Below are positions 49,898 to 52,073 of a DNA stretch of 64,000 nt, one piece after another (within the stretch, counting starts at the first letter, position 1; the number at the start of each line of letters is the position of its first letter). Source of the stretch: Desulfolutivibrio sulfoxidireducens (lineage in GTDB: Bacteria; Desulfobacterota; Desulfovibrionia; Desulfovibrionales; Desulfovibrionaceae); NCBI RefSeq assembly GCF_013376475.1, contig NZ_CP045508.1:927501-991500 (forward strand), read 5' to 3'. The notes under the pieces were generated by a model. It saw only the letters and a program-made list of their open reading frames with translations. It did not search any database and was not told where the DNA came from. A program made the position numbers and the translations under genes.

Positions 49898-51378
49898 CGC
49901 CAGGGACGATCGCCACGGGGCGCCATGCGCGGCACGGAAGGAATCCGCCGTCCGTCTGGCGGCGGATCGGGCGGGCGTGCGCGTGCGTGGCGTTTTTTCA
50001 TCTGTTTCCCGCGGCGGTCTGCCTGGGCGTGGAACTGACCGCCGCCGAGGTGGAGTATGTTCGGGGACATGGCCCCGTGACCATGTGTGTCGATCCCGAC
50101 TGGATACCCTTCGAGTGGATCAACGAGGCGGGGGAGCACGAGGGGATAGCCGCCGACCTGAACAGGCTCGTCGCCGAGCGGACGGGACTGCGGTTCGAGC
50201 TTGTCCGGACCCGTTCATGGGACGAAAGCCTGGCCCTCTCCAAGGAGGGCGGATGCCAGGTCCTCAGCTTCCTCAACCAGACGCCAGAGCGCGAAAAATG
50301 GCTCCTGTTCACCGAGCCGCTTTTCAGCGACCCAAACGTGTTCATCACCCGCGAGGAGCATCCCTTCATCGCCGATCCAGGGGATCTCATCGACGAGACC
50401 ATCGTGTTCCCCTCCGGGACCTCCATGGAGGAAATCGTCAGACATCGGTATCCGAACCTCGCCGTGCGCACGGTCGGGACGGAAAACGAGGCCATCGGCA
50501 TGGTTTCCGGAAAACAGGCGGACATGACCCTGCGCTCGCTCATCGTGGCCGCCTATACCATCAAGAAAGAGGGCCTGTTCAATCTCAAGATCGCGGGGCA
50601 GCTTCCAAACTACACAAACAACCTGCGCATGGGCGTCGTCAGGGACGAGCCGCTCCTGCGGGCGATCCTCGACAAGGGGATACGCACCATCTCACGGCAG
50701 GAAAGGGCCAGGATCGTCAACGAGCATGTGTCCATCAATGTCCAGACCGTGGTCGACTATGCCCTGGCCGTGAAGATCCTCCTCGGGTTCGGGGTGTTGG
50801 CCATCGTGGGGTTTTATTGGAACTACAGGTTGAAAGCGCACAACGCCGAACTCGAGCGGATCTCGCGGACCGACGCGCTGACCGGACTGCCCAACAGACT
50901 GAGCCTCAACGCCGTTTTTCAGGCGGAGTCCACGCGCGCCAAGCGTTACGGCCATCCCTTGTCCATCATCATGCTGGACATCGATCACTTCAAGATGGTC
51001 AACGACGAACTGGGGCATCTCGCGGGGGATGCCCTGCTTGTGGCCATCGCCCAGGCCATACGAAAAACCATCCGGGATTGTGATGTCGTCGGACGCTGGG
51101 GCGGGGAGGAATTTCTCGTGCTGTGCCCGGAAACCGACGCGACAGGCGCGATGCTCGTGGCCCAGCGCATACGCCAGGCCGTAAGGGACGCGGCCACCCC
51201 GGCCCGCCGGGCGCATACGATAAGCGGCGGCGTGGCCGAACTCGCGCCGGACGAAACCGTCGACGCCCTCCTGTCTCGCGCCGACAAGGCCCTGTATCGG
51301 GCCAAGGATACGGGCCGGGACCGGGTGTGCGGGGTGGAGAAGGAAGGGGAGACCGGGACGGAGGCGGAACGGACATGA
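49894..51378 (+). CDS. Solute-binding domain-GGDEF diguanylate cyclase
   Basis: A 494-residue membrane signalling protein: N-terminal signal helix (about 26-46), a periplasmic SBP_bac_3 domain (GPVTMCVDPDWIPFEWINEA to about residue 270), one membrane helix (about 288-306) and a cytoplasmic GGDEF domain (SRTDALTGLPNRLSLNAVFQ, LDIDHFKMVNDELGHLAGD) with the active signature GGEEF. It would make c-di-GMP in response to an amino-acid-like ligand. Overlap with the upstream hydrolase (ATGA) suggests that the hydrolase product or substrate is the ligand. Confidence 0.92.
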   Translation: MTPGTIATGRHARHGRNPPSVWRRIGRACACVAFFHLFPAAVCLGVELTAAEVEYVRGHGPVTMCVDPDWIPFEWINEAGEHEGIAADLNRLVAERTGLRFELVRTRSWDESLALSKEGGCQVLSFLNQTPEREKWLLFTEPLFSDPNVFITREEHPFIADPGDLIDETIVFPSGTSMEEIVRHRYPNLAVRTVGTENEAIGMVSGKQADMTLRSLIVAAYTIKKEGLFNLKIAGQLPNYTNNLRMGVVRDEPLLRAILDKGIRTISRQERARIVNEHVSINVQTVVDYALAVKILLGFGVLAIVGFYWNYRLKAHNAELERISRTDALTGLPNRLSLNAVFQAESTRAKRYGHPLSIIMLDIDHFKMVNDELGHLAGDALLVAIAQAIRKTIRDCDVVGRWGGEEFLVLCPETDATGAMLVAQRIRQAVRDAATPARRAHTISGGVAELAPDETVDALLSRADKALYRAKDTGRDRVCGVEKEGETGTEAERT

Positions 51379-51485
51379 AACGGCGGTGAGGTTTTTTCGG
51401 GGTGGCCGGGGACGTGTCCGGCAGGGGACTTTCCTCCTGATTGCCCAGTGTGTATCCTGATGGAAAAATACCAATGGGATAGAAA

Positions 51486-51806
51486 ATGCAAATACTCCTC
51501 ATTGTGTCCAGCCCAGACCCGGAGATCAAGTGGAACGCCGTGCGCTTCGGCAATTTTTTGTTGAACGAGGGCGAGGACGTGACCATCTTTCTCAATGGCC
51601 CGGCTGTTGATTTGTACCGGGGCGACAGTGAGCGCTTTTCCATCGCCGAGCAGGCCAAGTTGTTCGCCTTGAGCGACGGAGCCCTCGTGGCCTGAGGCAA
51701 GTGTCTGGGCCTCCACGGCGTGGAGGCCAGCGAGCATATCGCCCTATCGAACATGAAATTCCTTTCTGAACAGGTCAAGAAGGCGGACCGCATCATCAGT
51801 TTTTGA
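51486..51806 (+). CDS. DsrE-family selenoprotein candidate (Sec at codon 70, TGA)
   Basis: A 106-residue DsrE-fold protein if TGA at 51693-51695 is read as selenocysteine. The first 69 residues (MQILLIVSSPDPEIKWNAVR to FALSDGALVA) and the 36 after TGA (GKCLGLHGVEASEHIALSNM to ADRIISF) form one continuous DsrE-like sequence. The TGA replaces the first Cys of the conserved C-G-K-C, giving U-G-K-C. A perfect 9-bp hairpin with G-rich loop begins 12 nt after the TGA (51708-51728), meeting the bacterial SECIS pattern. DsrE-like selenoproteins are known in sulfate reducers. Role: sulfur or selenium transfer or peroxide/thiol chemistry, inferred. Confidence 0.85.
51708..51728 (+). promoter_or_regulatory. 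Bacterial SECIS element
   Basis: Stem GGCCTCCAC/GTGGAGGCC with loop GGC. The loop starts 21 nt after the TGA, inside the 16-37 nt window of bacterial SECIS hairpins, and has the required G at its first position. It would recruit SelB to decode UGA. Confidence 0.8.
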
Positions 51807-52073
51807 TCCCGGACCCGCGCTCCAGCATCCGTGCTCCGAACCGCGATTTCCGATGAACGCGGCCTCCGTGCGACCCGCTCCCGCCTCAGGTCCGAAATCC
51901 GGCCATGACGGCTTTTTTCCATATCCTCCTCTCGCGTCCGCCGGGGCATATTTTGTATTGCCGGCAGTGTCACCGTCCTGTAACAGTTTGGTATGCTGGC
52001 GCTCGTTGGCTTGCCGCCGCGTGGCGGGGCGGGGACGCATCCCGTTAACGGTTTCGATGGAGGGAGAATCGTC

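Follow-up and report, generated by a model that had tools for sequence, protein, structure and literature searches.

A predicted DsrE-like selenoprotein gene in Desulfolutivibrio sulfoxidireducens and its covarying SECIS-type hairpin

The locus and its read-through frame

We analysed a stretch of 64,000 nucleotides of the Desulfolutivibrio sulfoxidireducens genome (the window), in which a DsrE/DsrF-like (PF02635) gene lies at 51486..51806 on the + strand. The frame begins with ATG at 51486 and ends with an ordinary TGA at 51804-51806, and its sole internal interruption is a TGA at codon 70 (51693..51695, +), which codon conservation and alignment indicate to be read as selenocysteine (Sec), giving a read-through product of 106 residues. 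From the translation of the frame, the TGT codon of Cys73 (51702..51704, +) closes a UGKC motif at residues 70-73. The SECIS-type hairpin that follows (51708..51728, +), assigned by folding and covariation, has 9 bp, with 51708-51716 perfectly paired with 51720-51728, and an apical loop GGC at 51717-51719; the gap from the TGA is 12 nt to the stem and 21 nt to the loop. Inside the stem, CTC (Leu76; 51711..51713, +) and GAG (Glu80; 51723..51725, +) are the 5' and 3' halves of a codon pair that covaries in relatives, as identified from pair counts and codon usage. A preliminary description of the window had already reported the frame, the TGA at codon 70 and the GGC-loop hairpin, and our coordinates agree with it.

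The Pfam DsrE profile matched the read-through product across all 116 profile positions (36.1 bits against a cut-off of 22.7; E 8.1e-9), in agreement with the earlier proposal that both sides of the TGA read as one DsrE-like protein, and no NCBIfam model matched the protein at E up to 1. Met1 is almost invariant among 79 aligned sequences. A promoter scan of 51300-52070 found none, and one terminator-like site was present in the same interval, against 0.9 expected. Under genetic code table 11 codon 70 is a stop and the ORF list gives the first 69 residues, which is the truncated protein that standard annotation had been predicted to report; listing ORFs with TGA as a stop misses the catalytic half of the DsrE-like selenoprotein.

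DsrE-like selenoproteins were already known, as the preliminary description stated: the Sargasso Sea survey of 2005 reported 2 sequences (PMC1088965), a 2006 list includes one in Desulfovibrio vulgaris (PMC1794560), and an ocean survey names DsrE 1 and DsrE 2 selenoproteins (PMC2398784). Reviews of 2022 (PMC9312934) and 2026 (PMC13188914) equate the group with PF02635 and UxxC, and the latter calls its functions largely uncharacterized. With a UGKC motif inside its PF02635 domain, the window gene is a further member of the DsrE-like UxxC selenoproteins published since 2005 (listed example WP_014524487.1), the shared points being the Pfam family, UxxC, a bacterial SECIS and a Desulfovibrio host; the likeness is seen at the level of family, motif and SECIS. 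Within the openly available portions of the literature searched, we found none of three features reported below described: the missing second Cys, the covarying codons and the neighbourhood of DsrE and TsoA genes.

Codon 70 and the downstream part in relatives

Upon searching 288 genomes of the family, we found a match in 64 and the TGA form in 56, and 395 genomes drawn from the phylum gave a match in 77. Most of these matches, together with 19 named loci, were fetched and yielded 147 non-redundant rows. The codon count covers the 140 rows with at least 80 profile columns, E. coli YchN being included as a yardstick and as one of the 19 Cys rows; the rows below 80 columns are both parts of the split copies L080 and L141, L040, one row of L150 and L185, and weak TGA-less matches (e.g. 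G136, G138, G156, G263) were not counted as orthologues.

Codon 70 is TGA in 121 of the 140 relatives, TGC in 14 and TGT in 5, with no other codon, i.e. Sec or Cys is aligned with residue 70 in 140/140. The fragment L185 (genome G477), whose first half is missing, reads CGA (Arg) at the codon 70 position. The TGA had been described as standing at the first Cys of CGKC; this holds as far as Cys is concerned (19/140), but CGKC itself occurs in 2 rows only (L073 and L123), the most frequent Cys motif being CGTC (12/19). The 121 Sec forms comprise UGKC (66), UGVC (34), UGKL (9), UGKS (4) and UGSC (2), with UGTC (2), UKKA (2), ULTC (1) and UGAC (1) among the rarer motifs, so that residue 73 is Cys in 106/121 and Leu, Ser or Ala in 15/121. 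A tree of 138 rows, poorly resolved, requires 7 changes for Sec/Cys at residue 70 and 5 for Cys/other at residue 73. One of the two CGKC forms groups with the window gene in a supported set of 61 rows. Judged by path length from the window gene (1.32 for L073, 2.19 for L123), this form is L073, whose longest SECIS-like stem has 4 bp, as would be expected had it changed from Sec to Cys.

We next consider the sequence beyond the TGA. None of the 121 TGA forms ends there: the next in-frame stop lies 36 codons on in 101 of them, 35 in 16, 37 in 3 and 34 in 1. The median dN/dS is 0.49 after the TGA and 0.26 before it (818 pairs among 62 ungapped Sec sequences, each 318 bases long; rough estimates, with large dS), and for codons 83-106, beyond the hairpin, it is 0.52 (550 pairs, 76% of them below 1). 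These values indicate that the part after the TGA is working protein under purifying selection, less constrained than the first part.

It follows table 11 to take codon 70 as a true stop, leaving a 69-residue protein with a dead tail through a nonsense mutation or a sequencing error. Against this stand the same TGA in 121/140 relatives, the kept length of the tail and the purifying selection on it, and a 69-residue protein would be without the catalytic position; we regard a true stop as extremely unlikely.

Additional copies were observed at several loci. A partial second copy of residues 71-105, with GGGM for GKCM, lies ~200 bases downstream in L079 (genome G034). Tandem DsrE genes, possibly encoding two-subunit proteins, occur in L143, L150 (CGTC beside a UKKA Sec form), L133 (CGTC beside UGVC) and L183 (two Sec forms).

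The SECIS-type hairpin

Bacterial SECIS elements have a loop of 3-9 nt, a stem of 4-16 bp, a G among the first two loop bases, a spacing of 16-37 nt between UGA and loop and an energy at or below -7.5 kcal/mol (PMC13188914). Compared with these rules by hand, the window hairpin has a 3-nt loop starting GG, a 9-bp stem and a distance of 21 nt, and the 48 nt from the TGA fold at -20.8 kcal/mol. The folding z was -2.66 for these 48 nt, -1.43 for 56 nt and -1.83 for 77 nt.

We also estimated how often such a stem arises by chance. Upon re-drawing 15 codons synonymously with the protein fixed (5000 draws), a stem of equal length appeared in 5.8% of draws, and the energy version of this test gave 6.6%. 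Among the read-through frames of the window, counted with 60+ aa before and 30+ codons after the TGA, 8/78 have a stem of at least 8 bp, this gene included, and 5/78 one of at least 9 bp; for all 1646 TGA triplets of the window on both strands, 32 have a stem of at least 9 bp within range. The hairpin was consequently rejected as stand-alone proof: as an observation on a single sequence it is close to chance in the window and suggestive only. The earlier identification of a SECIS hairpin stands in that the rules hold and the stem covaries in relatives, but the hairpin alone is weaker evidence than it had looked. Two other long-stem frames, at + 62008 and - 43033, with the longest open stretches after the TGA among such frames, had no Pfam match at E 0.01 and were dropped.

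The relatives carry more information. Pair counts were made on 72 of 76 distinct Sec segments, without the UGVC forms L133, L077 and L078, which have longer loops, and without L040, which is broken further on; the window sequence represents L043. In these 72 aligned segments paired cells amount to 84.0%, compared to 74.6 in shuffles, and cells changed on both sides number 54, compared to 19.6. The covariation score is 0.213 (0.084 shuffled; 0.027-0.063 in slid controls), and further pair types, 14 vs 12.7 in shuffles, show no excess. The two outermost pairs of the window stem are not conserved, being paired in 18/72 and 31/72 segments, and the core consists of seven pairs. In a tree-corrected test of the covarying stem pair, only 2 independent pairs were available, with the expected direction in nearly every drawing and p 0.5.

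The clearest case is pair 19-33, which links base 1 of the codon preceding His77 to base 3 of the codon following Val79, with AU in 31 segments, CG in 27, GC in 5, UA in 2 and other combinations in 7 (n=72). The codon partners in the stem are Leu CTC with Glu GAG, Ile ATC with Asp GAT, and Val GTC with Asp GAC. In the 68 sequences with xHG[VA][DE], Asp is encoded by GAT in 34/34 cases after an A-initial codon and by GAC in 4/4 after a G-initial one, the overall Asp preference in the DsrE-like Sec genes being GAC (368) over GAT (168), covarying site included. Exceptions to the pairing in these 68 sequences are A with GAA (4), G with GAG (2) and C with GAA (1). Within the stem, the RNA element thus seems to determine which amino acids the codon pair encodes (Leu-Glu, Ile-Asp, Val-Asp).

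Synonymous re-draws were extended to 84 of the 85 Sec sequences and to all 7 with Cys. Stems average 7.1 bp in the Sec forms vs 4.2 in their re-draws, and 3.0 vs 3.1 in the Cys forms; individually, only 8/84 Sec sequences pass the test. A comparable hairpin, its longer loop starting GG, is present in many UGVC forms. Judged from these comparisons, the hairpin appears to be selected as RNA, synonymous sites included.

Selenocysteine machinery

The source genome (4.16 Mb, one contig, 99.96% complete) contains all of the sel genes that the preliminary description proposed to look for: selA (610.3 bits), ~111 kb from the DsrE-like gene, selB (379.5 bits), selC, the tRNA-Sec (84.1 bits; gathering score 47), and selD (336.6 bits). 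The selD gene (L020, G000:C1:1330681-1331607) has its own in-frame TGA, within the motif SAGUAAK and followed by a strong hairpin, and is probably itself a selenoprotein gene.

Across the family, selA at E 0.001 is present in 50/56 Sec-form genomes and in 180/232 others (one-sided Fisher p 0.03). This co-occurrence is weak because most family genomes carry selA anyway (230/288). Of the 6/56 Sec-form genomes without selA at that threshold, three have selB over the cut-off and G269 has a partial selB match. G164 (81% complete) has neither selA nor selB, likely due to an incomplete assembly; this explanation is less likely for G117 (95% complete, 3 contigs), where neither selA nor a selB over the cut-off was found beside the Sec-form DsrE.

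With complete Sec machinery in the source genome, and with Cys as the only alternative among the 140 relatives, reading of codon 70 as some other amino acid (e.g. Trp, or through leaky near-cognate read-through) is the least probable outcome, one we practically discount. The comparative evidence is strong, and UGA codon 70 is almost certainly decoded as Sec. Given the TGA codon in 121/140 relatives, the conserved tail, the covarying hairpin and the sel genes, we therefore hold it highly probable that the frame 51486-51806 is a selenoprotein gene with read-through at Sec70, encoding a single-domain DsrE-fold protein for which sulfur handling is the most likely role.

Fold, active site and proposed function

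A structure model built from an alignment of 79 of the 85 listed proteins reached pLDDT 97.8. Its closest fold matches are E. coli YchN (1jx7; Z 16.5), chain A of TusBCD (2d1p; 14.4), taken as TusD by its length, and chain A of Allochromatium vinosum DsrEFH (2hy5; 14.2). The top ten structures, at Z 13.0-16.5 with the next at 7.4, also include a designed cage, four archaeal or Syntrophomonas entries titled as DsrE-like or of unknown function, and two further proteins without assigned function. A PDB sequence search with the single protein returned only two weak unrelated matches, and a profile search recovered YchN (E 3.3e-5), agreeing on the alignment of Sec70. In two alignments Sec70 corresponds to TusD Cys78, to YchN Cys78 and to the first Cys of CGTC in the YedF-like protein of the source genome. 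The window protein shares its fold with YchN, TusD and DsrE at 18-21% identity, and these carry Cys, not Sec. Sec70 occupies the place of the superfamily's catalytic cysteine, where a strand ends and a short helix follows, and the comparison offers a clean, testable case of Sec at the sulfur-carrying position of DsrE proteins.

TusD Cys78 is the counterpart of Cys78 in DsrE. This position has been postulated as the superfamily active site, and Cys78 of DsrE binds sulfur and hands it to DsrC (PMC3397948). Like the UGKL and UGKS forms, TusD lacks a Cys three positions further along. By analogy, the DsrE-like selenoprotein may act in cytoplasmic sulfane sulfur handling via Sec70, a role to which we give about an even chance. 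The ribosome would meet the UGA at codon 70, where selenocysteyl-tRNA would be delivered by SelB sitting on the hairpin 21 nt farther along, and the outcome would be the 106-residue single-domain protein of DsrE fold. Sec70 would then take up sulfur as a selenenylsulfide and either pass it on or have it released by a thiol, with Cys73, where present, helping as a resolving or regenerating thiol. Were selenium short, translation would be expected to stop at residue 69, leaving a product without an active site.

A U-x-x-C redox centre had been proposed for this protein, in which Sec70 attacks and Cys73 resolves, as in a thiol-disulfide or peroxide oxidoreductase. Such a centre is plausible: Cys73 is present in 106/121 Sec forms, and published lists call DsrE-like proteins homologues of thiol-based oxidoreductases and record UxxC as their motif (PMC1794560, PMC13188914, PMC2398784). 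However, the second Cys is missing in the 15/121 Sec forms with UGKL, UGKS or UKKA, whereas residue 70 is Sec or Cys in 140/140, and the nearest studied relatives carry sulfur on the single counterpart of residue 70. We consider the redox enzyme a real possibility, with roughly one chance in three. The function is most likely sulfur relay or redox, and between the two we favour the sulfur carrier, at approximately even odds, because of the sulfur transfer by Cys78 and the absence of a second Cys in TusD; the loss of the second Cys in 15/121 Sec forms suits a one-residue sulfur carrier.

Handling of selenium in place of sulfur, as delivery or detoxification, has been proposed for YedF (TIGR03527), which is linked with selenium metabolism (PMC5322559). 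The C-terminal DsrE domain of the YedF-like protein in the source genome has CGTC at the Sec70 column, and in G033 and G034, two genomes of the same genus, selA and the DsrE-like gene share a strand and are 3.8 and 2.8 kb apart. The distance between the two genes in the source genome (~111 kb) and the occurrence of selA alone in 180 family genomes, vs both in 50, argue against such a role, which we judge quite improbable. YedF also differs in having Cys and an extra SirA-like domain, while the window protein has only 106 residues and gave no NCBIfam match at E up to 1, the YedF model asking for a score over 110.

Genomic context and the TsoA neighbourhood

The window gene is flanked by an SBP/GGDEF gene on one side and a chemotaxis receptor gene on the other, both of unrelated signalling type. 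We clustered the neighbours at 91 loci, using flanks of various lengths and ORFs of at least 90 aa with TGA as a stop, and no neighbour was common to more than 6 of them. With neighbours that are unrelated and not widely shared, no function can be drawn from context in the window. TusD and DsrE function as parts of multi-subunit complexes, and in E. coli tusB, tusC and tusD are adjacent genes, whereas no gene for such a partner was found among the large genes flanking the window gene.

A PF02635 profile search of the source genome returned two other places, both far from the window gene. One is a DsrE-type gene with CKPC (L001, 1498-1872, -), beside a gene that by eye resembles one for a heterodisulfide-reductase subunit, and the other is the YedF-like gene with CGTC (L002, 1036-1689, +). 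The search missed the window gene, which a protein search recovered; a PF02635 genome search can miss members, since the window gene itself was unlisted.

At three loci in other families of the phylum (L121, L123 and L132), the DsrE gene is directly preceded by a small gene that has an in-frame TGA, and this in turn by an ArsR-type gene. The ArsR-type genes form one neighbour cluster (Pfam HTH_5 in L132, E 8.1e-14), and the small genes (L121 1051-1494, +; L123 1887-2312, -; L132 951-1367, +) are TsoA-like with the motif U-x-A-K-C, the one in L121 matching NCBIfam TsoA (NF045695) at E 1e-38 and 132.9 bits, below the cut-off of 170. Neighbour clustering is blind to TsoA because tsoA has an in-frame TGA. 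TsoA is, like the window protein, a selenoprotein, but a different one without a Pfam match. In L123, the TGA is kept in TsoA and the DsrE is in its Cys form.

TsoA was matched in 45/395 phylum genomes, 32 of them over the cut-off. Upon comparison of the genome lists by eye, 20/45 TsoA genomes also have a DsrE gene, be it the Sec or the Cys form (expected number 8.8; p 4e-5, uncorrected for kinship), and in 13 of these 20 the two genes lie within 2.5 kb. A UGVC DsrE is within reach in 6 of 30 fetched TsoA loci. The source genome gave 0 TsoA matches at E up to 1, and none was recorded among the listed genomes of its family. The tsoA neighbourhood is a lead to the function of the DsrE-like selenoprotein.

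Sulfate reducers are said to lack DsrEFH yet have DsrC (PMC3397948). In a more speculative extension, which we put forward tentatively and hold to be rather unlikely as a whole, the Sec form of DsrE would be a one-residue selenium-based sulfur carrier, giving sulfane sulfur bound to Sec70 as a selenenylsulfide to an acceptor; in sulfate reducers it could be the missing DsrE-type partner of DsrC, and elsewhere part of an ArsR-regulated unit with TsoA, a two-selenoprotein relay for sulfur or selenium.

Finally, an ilvC-like gene follows the selenoprotein gene in L028, L040, where the selenoprotein copy is broken further on, and L114, and L028 also has ilvB- and ilvN-like genes on the upstream side, all of these names being given by eye.
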